Origin: an uncultured Hyphomicrobiaceae bacterium
GTDB lineage: Bacteria > Pseudomonadota > Alphaproteobacteria > Rhizobiales > CAMYJA01
NCBI GenBank assembly: GCA_947258705.1
Contig: CAMYJA010000002.1
Location: 184,478 to 248,477, forward strand
Direction of reading: 5' to 3'
DNA length: 64,000 bases
Part shown: positions 2,744 through 63,670 of the stretch, piece by piece
How positions within the stretch are numbered: the stretch's first letter is position 1
Layout: each line of letters begins with the position of its first letter
The notes under the pieces: generated by a model
Database searches by the model: none
Told to the model about the DNA's origin: nothing
The model's input: the letters and a program-made list of their open reading frames with translations, nothing else
Program-made: the position numbers and the translations under genes

Positions 2744-3409
2744 ATGTACGCTGTCATCAAAACCGGCGGCAAGCAATACCGTGTTGCACCGGACGACATT
2801 ATAAATATTGAAAAGCTTCCCGGCGATGCGGGCGAGCAGCTGCAATTCACCGACGTTCTGATGATCGGTGGCGATGGCGACCCGGTGATCGGATCGCCTC
2901 TGGTCGAGGGCGCGAGCGTTGCGGCCGAGGTCGTGGAGCAGAAACGCGCACGCAAGATCATCGTTTTCAAGAAAAAGCGGCGTAAAAATTATCGCCGCAA
3001 ACATGGTCATCGCCAGCATCTTACCGCGGTTCGCATCACCGATATTCTGACGGACGGCAAAAAGCCTGCGAAGAAAGCAGCGCCAAAGGCGAAGCCGAAG
3101 CCCAAGGATGACGCAAAGGCGAAAGCGGCCGAAGGCGGCAAGCCCAACCAGAAGAAGGGCCAGGACGATATTTCACTGATTTCCGGCGTCGGACCCGCTT
3201 TGGAGAAAAAACTGCACGGTTTCGGGGTCACGGAATTCAAGCATATTGCAGATATGAGTGAAGCCGATATTGAGAAAATGGACGCTGAGCTTTCGCTTGG
3301 CGGGCGCCCGATGCGGGAAGACTGGATTGAGCAAGCGCGTGAATTGATGGCAGGAAAGCCACCGCGCGCGAAGGCCGACAAAAAGGCCGCGGCAAAGAAC
3401 ACGGATTAA
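2744..3409 (+). CDS. rplU: 50S ribosomal protein L21 with C-terminal helix-hairpin-helix extension
   Basis: Residues 1 to about 103 are standard bL21, which binds 23S rRNA in the large subunit (start '[14 protein letters not shown]', basic '[17 protein letters not shown]'). At 221 aa it is about twice the usual length. A Lys/Ala-rich linker (about 104-140) leads to a compact domain at about 141-203 with the helix-hairpin-helix signature '[13 protein letters not shown]' and '[11 protein letters not shown]'. Extended L21 proteins of this kind are known in Rhizobiales. A very similar domain ends L19 in this window. Followed after 73 bases by rpmA, the usual operon partner. Start supported by GGAG upstream. 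Confidence 0.97.
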
Positions 3410-57498: not shown

Positions 57499-57849
57499 AT
57501 GCGTATTTTGAATTTAGCAGCAATTTTTTCGGCATTCGTTATAGTATCAGCGGCGGCAAATCCGGCTTATGCGGTCGGTGGCGACTATCTGCGCAAGGGC
57601 AGTCAGACCATCAAAGTCTTCACCAGCGGCGGCAAGCTTTTTTGCAAACGCAAGAGCGACGGCTTCGAAATGTGCCATGGCATGAAGAAAGCCGGTAACG
57701 TCTGGAAGGGCGGTAATATGAAGCATCCGGATATGCCCGGTTTCATGACCTTCAACGGTACGGTCACCTTCAGCGGAGCCGGTCTCAGCATCAAGGGCTG
57801 CGCGATTGGCGAGTCTTTTTGCGATGCCGAAAAGTGGAAGAAGAAATAA
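57499..57849 (+). CDS. Small secreted DUF2147-like protein
   Basis: 116 aa, signal peptide cleaved near 'NPAYA|VGG' (residue 25). The mature part has the DUF2147-like ending 'PGFMTFNGTVTFSGAGLSIK' leading to 'GCAIGESFCDAEKWKK', with four cysteines probably in disulphides. Strong ribosome binding site AAGGG before ATG 57499. Followed by a strong intrinsic terminator, so probably a single-gene transcript. Confidence 0.75.
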   Translation: MRILNLAAIFSAFVIVSAAANPAYAVGGDYLRKGSQTIKVFTSGGKLFCKRKSDGFEMCHGMKKAGNVWKGGNMKHPDMPGFMTFNGTVTFSGAGLSIKGCAIGESFCDAEKWKKK

Positions 57850-57890
57850 GTTTGTCCTGACCGGATTTCATATCCGGTCCGATCAAATCA

Positions 57891-57925
57891 AGAAGGGCGC
57901 GTTTTGAAAACGCGCCCTTCTTTTT
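57891..57925 (+). terminator. Strong intrinsic terminator after the DUF2147-like gene
   Basis: AGAAGGGCGCGTTTT and AAAACGCGCCCTTCT (57891-57921) form a near-perfect 14-15-bp stem with a very short loop, followed by TTTTT. Also lies at the 3' end of the convergent repeat-protein gene. Confidence 0.9.
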
Positions 57926-57953: not shown

Positions 57954-59258
57954 TCAGCAGCGTGTGGAAACCCGGCGCCATTTATAGCCGCCGCGCCGTT
58001 TCAGAACGCGCTCATGGCGCACACCGTAGACCGGTTTATGATAAACGCGGTGATGACGCGCGTGGCGCACGATGACGCGTTGCTTGCGGACTCCATAAAC
58101 GGGCGCATGGTAGATACGGCGGTGCTTGGCCGCACGCACTAGAACGCGCTCTTTTTTGACGCCATAGACAGCCGGGTGATGCACCCGGTAATGACGCGCC
58201 GCGCGTACCAGGACGCGTTCTTTCTTCACGCCGTAAACGGGCGCATGATAGATACGGCGATGCTTGGCCGCACGTATGCGAACGCGTTCTTTGACGTAGC
58301 CATAGACGGCCGGATGGCGAACGGCGTGCCGCCGGGCGGATTTGACCAAGACGCTGCGCCTGACTGTTTTTGTGACGGCCGGCAGGCGCACCTTGCAGAT
58401 TTTCTCATTGCCATGGAAAAGGCGATGGCCCTTGCGCACCCATATTGTCCGCGACGGGCGCACAACGACGGTTTGACGGACCGTTTTGTAGACCGCCGGC
58501 GTCGTCCGGTAGGATGTGCTTGCGCGGCGGGTCAATACGCGTTTTGAGCGATAGCCATATACGGCGGGCTTCGTCCGCGTTTCATGCCAGCCGCGTTTGA
58601 TCAAGACGCGCTTCGAGCGATAACCGTAAACCGCGGGCTTGGTGCGGGTTTCCGTCCAGCCGCGCTTGATCTTGACGCGCTTCGAGCGATAGCCGTAAAC
58701 CGCAGGCTTGGTGCGGGTTTCATGCCAGCCGCGCTTGATCATGACGCGCTTCGAGCGATAACCGTAAACCGCGGGCTTGCTGCGGGTCTCGGACCAGCCG
58801 CGCTTGATCATGACGCGCTTCGAGCGATAGCCGTAAACCGCGGGCTTGGTGCGGGTTTCCGTCCAACCTCGTTTGGCCACAACCCTTTTCGAGCGATAGC
58901 CGTAAACCGCGGGCTTGGTGCGGGTTTCCGTCCAGCCGCGCTTGATCTTGACGCGCTTCGAACGGTAGCCGTAGACAGCGGGCGTCGAACGGGTTTCGTA
59001 CCAGCCGCGTTTCACGACTACCCGATGGGACCTCGTTCCGTAAACCGCCGGGGTGGTGCGGGTTTCGTACCAGCCCCGCTTGACGACAACGCGCCTTGAT
59101 ACAGTTCCATAGACATCGGGGGTGCGGACTTTTTTATAACAGGAAAGCGTTTTGCCATGACGAGCGCCATGGTCGAAACCAAAGGCAACGGCTTTATCTG
59201 CCATTAATGGAAGAGCCAGCAACGCCGCTCCCGCCATCAACAGTGATCGACTGCGCAT
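57954..59258 (-). CDS. Secreted cationic 23-residue-repeat protein, expanded copy
   Basis: 434 aa, signal peptide to about residue 25 ('DKAVA|FGF'). Sixteen tandem 23-residue units with core 'PAVYGxRSKRVxIKRGWxET': ten with the reference Pro at 47, 70, 93 ... 254, a 16-residue insert with Cys288, then six at 293, 316 ... 408. Cys40 precedes unit 1 and Cys434 is the last residue. Extremely rich in Arg/Lys/Tyr. Units at residues 93-253 are nearly identical in DNA, showing recent expansion. Similar 'PAVYKTVxxxVVV' repeats occur in envelope proteins of other Proteobacteria, but I know no function. Paralogue lies just upstream. Confidence 0.85.
   Translation of the reverse strand: MRSRSLLMAGAALLALPLMADKAVAFGFDHGARHGKTLSCYKKVRTPDVYGTVSRRVVVKRGWYETRTTPAVYGTRSHRVVVKRGWYETRSTPAVYGYRSKRVKIKRGWTETRTKPAVYGYRSKRVVAKRGWTETRTKPAVYGYRSKRVMIKRGWSETRSKPAVYGYRSKRVMIKRGWHETRTKPAVYGYRSKRVKIKRGWTETRTKPAVYGYRSKRVLIKRGWHETRTKPAVYGYRSKRVLTRRASTSYRTTPAVYKTVRQTVVVRPSRTIWVRKGHRLFHGNEKICKVRLPAVTKTVRRSVLVKSARRHAVRHPAVYGYVKERVRIRAAKHRRIYHAPVYGVKKERVLVRAARHYRVHHPAVYGVKKERVLVRAAKHRRIYHAPVYGVRKQRVIVRHARHHRVYHKPVYGVRHERVLKRRGGYKWRRVSTRC
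58500..58982 (-). repeat. Seven near-identical 69-bp coding repeats
   Basis: Units encoding residues 93-253 of the repeat protein are 69 bp each and differ mostly at one or two codons (Thr/His/Ser before 'ETR'; Lys/Met/Leu/Val before 'IKRGW'). Reading frame is kept in every copy. Length differences between strains are likely. Confidence 0.9.
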
Positions 59259-59302
59259 ATTTAAACTCCCTAAACTGACTTATACTGACGAAGGAATAAG
59301 AA

Positions 59303-59318
59303 TTAAAAACAGTTAACC
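59303..59318. promoter_or_regulatory. TTAA-N6-TTAACC motif upstream of the expanded repeat-protein gene
   Basis: TTAA (59303-59306), six bases, then TTAACC (59313-59318), 45 bases upstream of the gene start on the minus strand. Confidence 0.3.
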
Positions 59319-59478
59319 GTACCAACCCGCCTGAGGGTCGACAATCTCGCGGGGATATTATTTGCGTTTCATGGTTAACGGGAAGAATAGGGAGGAGACA
59401 GGGAGGTCAGGCATGAACGTGACCGGCAGCCTGTGTCGAGCGGGCATTCATGCCCGCTCGAGATTTCGTAAACGCCGT

Positions 59479-60240
59479 TCAGCAGCCCGGTGCGACGCGC
59501 TTCCATGCGGTCGTGCCGCGCCTTACGAGAACACTCTCGGAGCGCGTTCCGTATCGGGCCGGATGATTGACGACATGGCTCCGCGCCGGTGTCATCACGA
59601 TCCGCTCTGATACGGTCTTGTAGACAGGCGGATGGTAAACGCGTTTTGTCCGGGCGGGCGTGAGCTGGATGCGCTCGCTTGTCCAGGCATAAACGGCAGC
59701 TGTGTGGCTCGGTACCCGTTTCGGCCCCGAAACCATGACCTCGCGGGCGACCGTTTCGGTTAGGGCCGGCACGACCACTTTGCAAAGCTTGCTGTCGCGG
59801 CGCAAAAAACCGGTGCGCTTGGTGACCCATTTGGTGGTCGCGGGGCGGACGGTGCGCGTTTGATGAACCGTGCGGTAGACCGCCGGCGTGGTATGCCAGC
59901 TGGTCCGTGCCGGCGACACCAAAACGCGCCGTTTGCGGCTGCCATAGACGGCGGGCACTCTCACGGTTTGCCACCAGCCGGGCCTGACCTGGACACGTTT
60001 ATGGCGCGTTCCGTAAACTGCCGGGATGCGGCGCGTTTCCTGCCAGCCTTCACGAATGACCACCCGGCGGGAGACGTCGCGGTAAACATCGGGCGTGTGG
60101 ACTTTCTTGTAACATGCGAGAGCCTTTCCATGCGGCTCCGCCTGGCGATGAAGAAACTCGAATGCATTGGCGCCCGATCCCGCCGTGAGCGGGATGACGA
60201 GCGCTGATGCTGCTAAAATGAAATGACGTGCTGACCTCAA
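59479..60240 (-). CDS. Secreted cationic 23-residue-repeat protein, compact paralogue
   Basis: 253 aa, signal peptide to about residue 26. Same plan as its neighbour: units with reference Pro at 50, 73, 96, 119, a 16-residue shift with Cys153, then units at 158, 181, 204, 227. Cysteines at 43, 153 and 253 match Cys40, Cys288 and Cys434 of the expanded copy. Units are more diverged ('PAVYGTRHKRVQVRPGW', 'PPVYKTVSERIVMTPAR'). Adjacent tandem genes on the same strand, so a duplication pair. Likely periplasmic or outer-surface; function unknown. Confidence 0.85.
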   Translation of the reverse strand: MRSARHFILAASALVIPLTAGSGANAFEFLHRQAEPHGKALACYKKVHTPDVYRDVSRRVVIREGWQETRRIPAVYGTRHKRVQVRPGWWQTVRVPAVYGSRKRRVLVSPARTSWHTTPAVYRTVHQTRTVRPATTKWVTKRTGFLRRDSKLCKVVVPALTETVAREVMVSGPKRVPSHTAAVYAWTSERIQLTPARTKRVYHPPVYKTVSERIVMTPARSHVVNHPARYGTRSESVLVRRGTTAWKRVAPGC

Positions 60241-60361
60241 TTTTTTACTCCGTTACACGAACTAACAATGGTATTGAACGAACAGTCTTTCGTTAAGACT
60301 TTGGAAACCATATCCGGGAGTTCTTAACGAGTTGTTCACACATTGGCGCAATGGAATTCAG

Positions 60362-60379: not shown

Positions 60380-60442
60380 AATCATTGCATTGTGGGACAT
60401 TGCATCTTCCGTGCCGAAACGCGCTTGAACAGGAGAGCGACG

Positions 60443-61150
60443 CTGACATCCGCCTGGACCGCCCGCATCATCAGCCTTTATCCCGAACTCTTTCCGGGTC
60501 CGCTCGGCGCCTCCGTCACCGGCCGCGCGCTCGAGGAGGGGATCTGGTCGCTCGAGACCACGCAATTACGCGACTTCGCCCACGACCGTCATGGTTCGGT
60601 CGACGCGGCGCCCGCCGGCGGCGGACCGGGCATGGTGCTCCGGGCCGATGTGGTCGGGGCCGCGATCGAACATGTCAGGACGTCGGCCGACACGGACATT
60701 CCGGCCATCTATCTCTCGCCCCGCGGCGAGCCCTTCACTCAGGAGTTGGCGCGCGAATTCTCGCAGGGTGCGGGCGCCATACTGCTTTGCGGGCGCTTTG
60801 AAGGCGTCGATGAGCGGGTCATCGAGCAACATCGCTTGCGCGAAATATCGATCGGCGACTATGTCATGACGGGCGGCGAACTCGCGGCCATGGTTCTCAT
60901 CGACAGCGTGGTGCGGCTTTTGCCTGGCGTCGTCGGGGATGAACGCTCGCTGGGGGAGGAAAGCTTCCAGGCCGGCCTGCTTGAATATCCGCAATATACA
61001 AAGCCGAGAAGTTGGGAAGGGCTTGAGATTCCAGAGGTTCTTCTGTCCGGCGATCATGGCCGCATCGCCGACTGGCGGCTGGCTCAATCGAAAGAGATCA
61101 CGGCCAAAAGACGACCCGACCTCATGGCGCGCAAAAAGGACAAAGAGTAG
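60443..61150 (+). CDS. trmD: tRNA (guanine37-N1)-methyltransferase TrmD, probable CTG start
   Basis: SPOUT enzyme that methylates G37 of tRNAs. 235 aa from CTG 60443-60445, which has AGGAGAG (60431-60437) at ideal spacing and gives the family-like start 'MTSAWTARIISLYPELFPGP'. In-frame alternatives GTG 60392 and TTG 60425 lack a ribosome binding site and add non-homologous residues. Trefoil-knot motifs 'LLCGRFEGVDERVIEQ' and 'EISIGDYVMTGGELAAMVL' are present. The usual rpsP-rimM partners upstream are absent. Followed by rplS. Confidence 0.93.
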   Translation: MTSAWTARIISLYPELFPGPLGASVTGRALEEGIWSLETTQLRDFAHDRHGSVDAAPAGGGPGMVLRADVVGAAIEHVRTSADTDIPAIYLSPRGEPFTQELAREFSQGAGAILLCGRFEGVDERVIEQHRLREISIGDYVMTGGELAAMVLIDSVVRLLPGVVGDERSLGEESFQAGLLEYPQYTKPRSWEGLEIPEVLLSGDHGRIADWRLAQSKEITAKRRPDLMARKKDKE

Positions 61151-61333
61151 GCGCTGAGGGCCGGGCCGGGCCTTGACCCGCTTGTTTTATCAAACTTGTG
61201 CATTCTCCTGTCGACAAGAGCGGTAAATTCGGTTAGAAAATCCACTCGATTTCCCAAAAAAGGGGCCGTAAGAGCCGGCAGCTTCATGTTGCGTGGCTCC
61301 TCTGCGCTTGAACAGCCGAGGTTCCATAGAAAA

Positions 61334-62095
61334 ATGACCAAGAAAATGAGTATTATCGAAGAGATCGAGCATGAGCACGCCACCCAGCTCGAACAGGAGC
61401 GTCCGGTGCCGGAATTCGCGCCCGGCGACACGGTTCGCGTCAATGTCAAGGTGGTCGAGGGCACACGCTCACGGACCCAGGCCTATGAAGGCGTCTGTAT
61501 CGGACGGTCGGGGGGCGGGCTCCACGAAAACTTTACAGTGCGCAAAATTTCCTATGGCGAGGGGGTGGAACGGGTGTTCCCGGTTTACTCGCCATTGATC
61601 GAATCCGTCGAGGTAATCCGGCGCGGCAAGGTTCGGCGCGCCAAGCTTTACTATCTCAGGGGACGGCGCGGCAAATCCGCCCGTATTCCGGAGCGGACGG
61701 ATGTGCGCGGCAAGAAACTGTCCCAGCGCGACAAATTTCGCGGCTTTAAAAAGCCCAAGGGCGAATCCGACAATCTGACCGAGATCACCGGTGTCGGCGA
61801 AGAACTGCAAAAACGCCTTAACAAATTCGGGATTACCCAGTTTGCACAGATTGCCAATTTTTCCGATGACGAGATCGAGAAAATTGATGAGGTTCTGAAT
61901 TTCAAGGGCCGGATCGAGCGTGAAGACTGGATCGGCCAGGCGCGCAATCTGATGGCTGCCGCAACGGTCGAAGAGGTGCCGGAAGAGGCGCTCGGCGAGG
62001 AGACGCCCGCGGAAGAGCCTCAAGCTGAGACTGCGCCTGAAGCCAAGTCCGAAGCCGCACCCGATGGCGGTGACGATAAGGACGAGAAAGCGTAA
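61334..62095 (+). CDS. rplS: 50S ribosomal protein L19 with C-terminal helix-hairpin-helix extension
   Basis: bL19 bridges the subunits. Core from '[18 protein letters not shown]' through '[20 protein letters not shown]', '[20 protein letters not shown]', '[15 protein letters not shown]'. At 253 aa it is about twice the usual 115-130 aa. Residues about 147-210 carry a domain closely like that ending L21 ('[17 protein letters not shown]', '[13 protein letters not shown]'), then an acidic tail rich in Glu/Ala. Start ATG 61334; ATG 61346 ('MSIIEE') is an alternative. Downstream of trmD, as usual. Confidence 0.95.
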
Positions 62096-62269
62096 AACCA
62101 CTGATGGGTTGGACGCGTGCTTTCTTCGAGCGCTTATTGCATAATGGAAAAACTGACAGGGAGATGTTCGCGCACCGGTTCGCGGGGCGCCTTCCTGACG
62201 GATACTCCCGAATTCAGGCCGGTGACAATCGACTGACCGGGGGCAACCGATTTTCGGAGGCAGGGCATT

Positions 62270-63670
62270 ATGGCCAGAACCTTGTACGATAAAATCTGGG
62301 ACGATCATCTGGTCGATGTTCAGGATGACGGCACATGCCTCATATATATCGACCGCCATCTCATTCATGAAGTGACAAGTCCGCAGGCCTTTGAAGGTTT
62401 GCGGATGACGGGACGAAAGGTCAGGGCGCCTGAAAAGACGCTTGCCGTCGTCGACCACAACGTGCCGACCACGGACCGGTCGCACGGCATTGACGATCCT
62501 GAATCAAAAATCCAGATCGATGCGCTGGCGGACAATTGCGCCGAGTTCGGCATAGAATATTTCAATGAGCTCGATCCGCGTCAGGGCGTCGTCCATATCA
62601 TCGGACCAGAGCAGGGCTTCACCCTTCCCGGCACGACCATCGTCTGCGGCGACAGCCATACCTCGACCCATGGCGCTTTTGGCGCGCTTGCGCATGGTAT
62701 CGGCACGTCCGAAGTCGAGCACGTTCTCGCCACCCAGACGCTTATTCAGTCGAAGGCCCTCAACATGGCGGTTCGCGTCAATGGAACGCTTGCCGAAGGC
62801 ATCACGGCCAAGGATGTCATTCTCGCGATTATCGGGGAAACCGGCACTGCGGGCGGTACCGGTCATGTCATCGAATATATGGGTGATGCGATATCTGCGC
62901 TTTCCATGGAAGGCCGGATGACGGTCTGCAACATGTCTATCGAGGCCGGCGCGCGCGCCGGACTGATCGCACCCGATGAAAAGACCTTCGCCTATCTCGA
63001 AGGCCGGCCCCGGTCGCCGAAGGGCGCGGCATGGGAGGCGGCTCTTGCCGATTGGAAAGAGCTGCGCTCGGATGAGGGCGCCCATTTCGACAAAGAGATC
63101 ACGATCGACGCGGCCAACCTGCCGCCCATCGTGACCTGGGGTACAAGTCCCCAGGACGTCATCGCCATTGGCGGCGCCGTGCCCGATCCGGGCACGGTGA
63201 CGGATGCCGCGAGGAAAGCGGCCATGAAACGGTCTCTGGACTATATGGGGCTGACGCCGGGCACGCCGATCAAGGATATCAATATTGACCGCGTCTTTAT
63301 CGGGTCTTGCACCAATGGCCGGATCGAAGACCTTCGCGCGGTTGCCGATGTCGTTCGCGGGCAACATGTGAACGAAAATGTCAATGCGATGATCGTTCCG
63401 GGTTCCGGACTCGTCAAGGAGCAGGCGGAAGAGGAAGGCCTTGACGATATCTTCAAGGCTGCCGGTTTCGAATGGCGCGAGCCGGGATGCTCCATGTGTC
63501 TTGCGATGAATGCGGACAAGCTCGAACCCAAGGAGCGCTGCGCTTCGACCTCGAACAGAAATTTCGAGGGACGGCAGGGACGGCAGGGACGGACGCATCT
63601 GGTGTCACCCGCCATGGCGGCGGCCGCTGCCATTGCCGGTCACTTTGTCGATATTCGGGAATTCGGTTAG
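62270..63670 (+). CDS. leuC: 3-isopropylmalate dehydratase large subunit
   Basis: Fe-S aconitase-family subunit that, with LeuD, isomerises isopropylmalate. 466 aa, complete. Cluster cysteines in '[15 protein letters not shown]' and '[15 protein letters not shown]'; catalytic region '[19 protein letters not shown]'; C-terminal '[20 protein letters not shown]'. GGAGG at 62258 region supports the ATG. LeuD and LeuB are encoded 6-8 kb away on the opposite strand. Confidence 0.98.

Follow-up and report, generated by a model that had tools for sequence, protein, structure and literature searches.

The window, a stretch of 64,000 nucleotides from an uncultured Hyphomicrobiaceae bacterium, carries two adjacent minus-strand genes for repeat proteins, termed here P0001 and P0002 (Table 1). 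Both open reading frames were found where the preliminary description had placed them, and they are the only members of their family in the genome of the window. The N-termini of both proteins, read by eye, contain a positively charged hydrophobic segment resembling a signal peptide, in line with the export signals assigned to them before; neither signal region, with the ends given in Table 1, has a lipobox cysteine. The P0001 gene converges with a gene for a small secreted DUF2147 protein (57499-57849; 29.1 bits at a cut-off of 27), a second copy of which lies on contig C4. The stem with T-run between these two genes is a likely terminator, in a scan where sites were overall no more numerous than in shuffled sequence. 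Antisense open reading frames across the repeats (58584-59099 on the plus strand and others) were dismissed as by-products of the repeat.

Table 1. Coordinates of the repeat gene pair, its parts and its flanking features in the window
Feature	Position	Strand	Detail
P0001, large paralogue	57954..59258	-	434 aa, 10+6 units, ATG start
P0001 ribosome-binding site GGGAG	59266..59270	-	7 nt upstream of ATG (sequence)
P0001 signal peptide	59184..59258	-	residues 1-25, cleavage between AVA and F, read by eye
P0001 block 1	58431..59120	-	ten 23-residue units, residues 47-276
P0001 Cys-bearing linker	58383..58430	-	residues 277-292, C288; block 1 ends with W273
P0001 block 2	57969..58382	-	six units, residues 293-430, then C434
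P0002, small paralogue	59479..60240	-	253 aa, 4+4 units, TTG start
P0002 ribosome-binding site GGAG	60248..60251	-	7 nt upstream of TTG (sequence)
P0002 signal peptide	60163..60240	-	residues 1-26, cleavage between ANA and F, read by eye
P0002 block 1	59818..60093	-	four units, residues 50-141
P0002 Cys-bearing linker	59770..59817	-	residues 142-157, C153; W138 directly ahead
P0002 block 2	59494..59769	-	four units, residues 158-249, then C253
Likely terminator	57890..57922		15-bp stem with T-run; P0001 and DUF2147 converge on it
trmD	60392..61150	+	divergent neighbour of P0002, identified from sequence

Automated counting gave a period of 23 residues at every step of both proteins save one, a 39-residue step carrying a cysteine in each, and returned the same exact period and unit numbers as had been reported. 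Residue identity at a lag of 23 was 0.58 in P0001, against a shuffled mean of 0.09 and a maximum of 0.14 in 2000 shuffles, and 0.245 in P0002, against 0.08 and 0.147. At the DNA level, a pattern of three in-phase PAxY codon sets matched the window eight times, always inside one of these two genes, and gave no match in 100 shuffles. Cysteines are located at residues 40, 288 and 434 of P0001 and at 43, 153 and 253 of P0002. The signal-peptide-like N-terminus, the period, the 39-residue step and three cysteines are thus common to both proteins, as expected of the adjacent paralogues with one plan that had been proposed. Block 1 of P0001 forms a 69-bp tandem array with 84% matches, which suggests that its excess units arose by a recent expansion.

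Differences between repeat units and between the paralogues were biased to synonymous sites (pN/pS of 0.35, 0.55 and 0.58), and GC3 of the two genes was 0.69-0.70. Taken with the presence of homologues in many genomes, these values indicate that both genes are coding and under protein-level constraint. The strongly cationic character noted before is evident in mature P0001, with a net charge at pH 7 of +104.5 on 409 residues (75 Arg and 43 Lys, 118 in all, versus 13 Glu and 2 Asp, 15 in all). Mature P0002 carries +34.6, and net charge per residue amounts to 0.16 in P0002 and 0.25 in P0001.

Searches of Pfam and NCBIfam with P0001 and P0002 gave no family above cut-off, and the peptidoglycan-binding (PF01471) and OmpA C-terminal domains were absent from both in the Pfam search. 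The PDB sequence search found no relative of the repeat, its matches being confined to the peptidoglycan-binding domain of relatives. P0001 weakly matched one PHROG of unknown function (1.5e-5); a phage search gave no match and a plasmid search a single one, on a Methylobacterium bullatum replicon. Literature searches on the repeat also found nothing relevant, and the earlier statement that no function has been described still holds. A profile search, of the kind proposed at that stage as a check, detected relatives in 67 of the 297 genomes of the window's order, distributed over 29 of its 122 genera, so the pair are not orphans. At least 118 stretches matched the codon pattern for consecutive units in 85,000 species genomes; those listed belong to Alpha-, Beta- and Gammaproteobacteria, Campylobacterota, Myxococcota/Desulfobacterales, Bacteroidota and Verrucomicrobiota.

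On sequence comparison we regard as solid the anatomy of P0001 and P0002 and also their assignment to a large unnamed superfamily, defined here as the PAxY-23 two-block envelope repeat superfamily. Both proteins have the exact 23-residue unit with PAxY and with V/I at position 11, and both follow the landmark order C1-block-W-linker-C2-block-W-C3, with C3 at W+7. In a cross-phylum alignment of 20 sequences C43, W138, C153 and W246 (P0002 numbering) are invariant; the conserved cysteine plan proposed before thus finds support in C1 and C2. Because the landmarks are invariant and the register is shared with anchored forms, the three cysteines can be attributed to the superfamily itself.

Outside the window's order, most listed members carry at their C-terminus either the peptidoglycan-binding domain PF01471 or an OmpA-like one. 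The usual anchored plan consists of an export signal or lipobox, a spacer, xGxCYA, units, WKKGxGP...TGEIMCLVEVP, a second set of units, W..VLCETN and PG_binding_1, the last being replaced by an OmpA-like C-terminus in flavobacterial members (L116 and others, read from sequence). For the repeat part of these relatives there is no model in Pfam or NCBIfam. Profile-profile alignment of short against anchored forms gave a probability of 100 over 210 columns, paired 1:1 with the register unshifted; the E value of 3e-41 is inflated by the repeats, but the landmarks nonetheless coincide. P0001 and P0002 stop at the third cysteine, where the wall-binding domain of the relatives begins. The anchored PF01471 lipoproteins (L158 of Melioribacteraceae, L157 of Pelagibius litoralis and L109 of Deltaproteobacteria) share with the pair the PAxY...V.V unit of 23 residues, the two blocks, the W-linker-Cys element, the first cysteine ahead of block 1 and the third behind block 2. 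They differ from it in having a lipobox, a spacer and a peptidoglycan-binding domain, none of which occurs in the pair, and in being near neutral. A sub-cut-off partial match to HxsA (TIGR03979) in one of them (L158:2866-3990, residues 257-375) extends past the peptidoglycan-binding domain into the last repeat unit. The superfamily also includes anchored four-block 3+3+3+3 forms in Thiotrichales and Campylobacterota (L106, L131, L141, L154, L202) and very long Caulobacterales/Hellea members of more than 1500 residues with tens of units (L093, L100, L114), of which at least L093 and L100 have Gly/Ser-rich C-terminal tails.

Short Hyphomicrobiales forms from Roseibium (L108), Labrenzia (L110), Bosea (L206) and Jiella (L130) likewise have a signal and no wall-binding domain, with 3+3 or 4+4 units. 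The three-cysteine plan of the pair is found in all of these save the Bosea forms, which are without the terminal cysteine. In contrast to the pair, their charge is moderate (0.01-0.15 per residue), no second copy was seen alongside and in the tree they group elsewhere. The order also has long, cationic proteins with two blocks (G032, G011, G018, G140), which match the pair in charge density, at about 0.25, in having expanded blocks and in belonging to its clade (98/94 support), but their blocks are mostly equal (9+9, 11+11, 7+7) and their linker is different, with extra cysteines in it; lemA is adjacent in all of them except G018. Phage tail-type repeats (LTPARYDNTNTFYSPTVTPGAVT) have PAxY spaced by 23 residues, as in the pair, yet they lack V/I at unit position 11 as well as the cysteine plan and were seen on viral contigs only. 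On such contigs (L061-L091, e.g. L085 near 3124-3342) this 23-residue repeat, as LTPARYDNTNTFYSPTVTPGAVT and in NYN-rich variants, is common, probably in tail or fibre proteins.

Charge and anchoring were associated among complete open reading frames: the median net charge per residue was 0.029 with a peptidoglycan-binding domain and 0.132 without (p 3e-8). Since 15 of the 16 high-charge proteins, P0001 and P0002 among them, fall in one clade of the order (98/94 support), this association may reflect a single evolutionary event, or nearly so, and not many. In the 18 genomes with short forms, none of the matches listed spanned both the repeat and a peptidoglycan-binding domain. Other anchor-less members, 3+3 forms in L054, L060, L011 and L122, have His-rich C-terminal tails that possibly bind metal.

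AlphaFold2 run on P0002 with 20 sequences gave pLDDT values above 90 across most of both blocks and predicted one 12-residue and one 7-residue strand per unit, arranged as an antiparallel beta-meander. The repeat solenoid for which a structure prediction had been suggested was not borne out. With a pTM of 0.34, the model does not fix the placement of the blocks relative to each other. For P0001 the prediction was confident solely where relatives align, and residues 69-194 remained under a pLDDT of 50, most likely because the aligned relatives do not cover the expanded units. Foldseek against solved chains returned no match at E 0.001 or better, and the best VIA Z was 2.9; weak beta-hairpin pore and viral rows in the fold search were discarded as not meaningful, their superpositions being very poor.

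Information on the arrangement of the blocks came from their lengths. The architectures counted were 3+3, 4+4, 6+6, 7+7, 9+9 and 11+11, plus the four-block 3+3+3+3. Blocks were equal in 50 of 66 complete two-block open reading frames, where 18.2 were expected and none of 20000 permutations, which ignore phylogeny, reached that number. Leaving out the 4+4 class, 20 of 36 were equal (6.6 expected), and in a hand-checked cationic set 9 of 12 (2.4 expected, p 5e-5). Within the window's clade, one genus shows 7+7, 7+7, 9+9, 9+9 and 9+11, another 9+9, 11+11 and 11+11, and single genomes 6+6 and 12+9, several of these counts including, at the start of block 2, a degenerate unit added by eye. The rule is common and not universal: P0002 follows it with 4+4, P0001 with 10+6 does not. 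With unit profiles built for each block from 4+4 members, the blocks of longer members, P0001 included, can still be told apart, which indicates that both blocks are ancient and that each has changed length, neither having been copied anew. As block lengths covary, the simplest reading suggests that the two blocks pair unit for unit, and the length match seen in most members is a stronger sign of a fixed arrangement than the cysteines alone. Pairing cannot be complete in all members, because P0001 (10+6) and two cationic relatives with 12+9 and 9+11 exist. The matching might also reflect common descent or counting and no physical pairing at all. We give this some weight but find it doubtful: the 3+3 and 4+4 classes are clade-wide, the permutations are blind to phylogeny and some counts rest on the unit added by eye, whereas matched changes occur inside single genera (7+7 to 9+9; 9+9 to 11+11) and 6+6 and 7+7 arise in unrelated phyla.

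From these features a mechanism can be outlined in which P0001 and P0002 would be exported envelope proteins whose cysteine-bearing linker divides two blocks of units. The covariation of block lengths makes it most likely that the blocks run alongside each other and form a hairpin rod that can be extended; the first and third cysteines would then lie at one end, where a disulphide clamp is possible, with the middle cysteine at the turn. In the relatives, such a rod would be kept in the periplasm by a lipid at the N-terminus together with a peptidoglycan-binding or OmpA-like domain at the C-terminus, the wall-binding role of the anchored forms being suggested by the domain. In the window pair, dense Arg and Lys most likely stand in place of these anchors and would hold the proteins to an anionic envelope polymer (peptidoglycan carboxylates or LPS phosphates), so that they would act as structural spacers. 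Binding of an acidic polymer by P0001 and P0002 is plausible. For the reading as a whole, a secreted, probably disulphide-clamped beta-rod that binds an anionic envelope polymer by charge in replacement of a wall-binding domain, we consider the chances about even; it agrees with the wall-anchored forms among the relatives. Somewhat more tentative is the general proposal of a new type of extendable rod, in which equal beta-meander blocks pair unit for unit, a disulphide joining the first cysteine to the third closes the base, both arms gain units together to set the length and one branch has swapped its wall-binding domains for surface charge.

The charge of P0001 would bind any polyanion, and neither window protein has a lipobox or a wall-binding domain. 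Both points are also compatible with released cationic rods that bind eDNA or capsular polysaccharide in a biofilm, as an extracellular matrix or nucleic-acid-binding protein would. We judge this unlikely, given that the relatives are envelope-anchored, that the signal appears to be of Sec type only and that no dedicated secretion system is encoded next to the pair.

A second alternative emerged from the genomic context. None of the window's neighbour genes recurs beside the repeat genes in 15 relatives' regions. The survey of gene neighbours envisaged in the preliminary description did yield a conserved arrangement among relatives, lost in the window: in six of these regions the repeat gene is divergent from lemA and two TPM-domain genes, and with shorter loci counted this holds for 13 genomes from four families of the order. 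The lemA adjacency is missing in the other nine regions (G020, G132, G199, G273, G047, G008, G018, G019, G029) and from the stretches examined around anchored members, whose neighbour clusters reflect clades only. The genome of the window has ffh-rpsP-rimM followed by lemA-TPM-TPM on another contig (L280 4934-9901), and trmD-rplS-leuC (60392-63670) is oriented divergently to the repeat pair. The order rpsP-rimM-trmD-rplS is a standard bacterial operon; in this genome it is split between L280 and the window. An exchange between rimM/trmD and repeat/lemA would leave exactly these two loci, and ffh, rpsP and rimM are absent from the lemA regions of relatives, as fits such an exchange. The window locus therefore looks like a rearranged descendant of the lemA-adjacent arrangement. 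The repeat proteins might thus be partners or substrates of a LemA-TPM membrane system, for instance envelope-stress proteins controlled from the shared intergenic region, as the recurrence of the divergent arrangement and the match of the split loci to a rearrangement would allow. The regions and anchored members without lemA, and the loss of the adjacency in the window itself, argue against this, and we hold it to be rather improbable. A cationic protein with toxic or self-directed action, for instance a membrane-disrupting antimicrobial, would agree with the high positive charge, the Tyr/Trp content and the tandem paralogues, but it is very improbable in view of the beta-repeat architecture, which is long, predicted with confidence and conserved in the anchored relatives, of an immunity gene that was nowhere seen and of PADLOC, which gave no match.

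Beyond what had been described, the analysis adds a superfamily with peptidoglycan-binding members, blocks of matched length and a lemA-TPM neighbourhood in relatives. The superfamily is widespread but undescribed, extending over several phyla with neither a Pfam or NCBIfam model nor a solved structure. The matched block lengths are its most surprising part and amount to a direct structural prediction from sequence alone. In Rhizobiales, which have no Lpp, the outer membrane is tethered to the wall via other proteins (PMC10787603), and a cationic envelope rod in this group would bear on how the envelope holds together. If charge does replace the wall-binding domain, the pair would show clearly how a tether can switch its mode of attachment.
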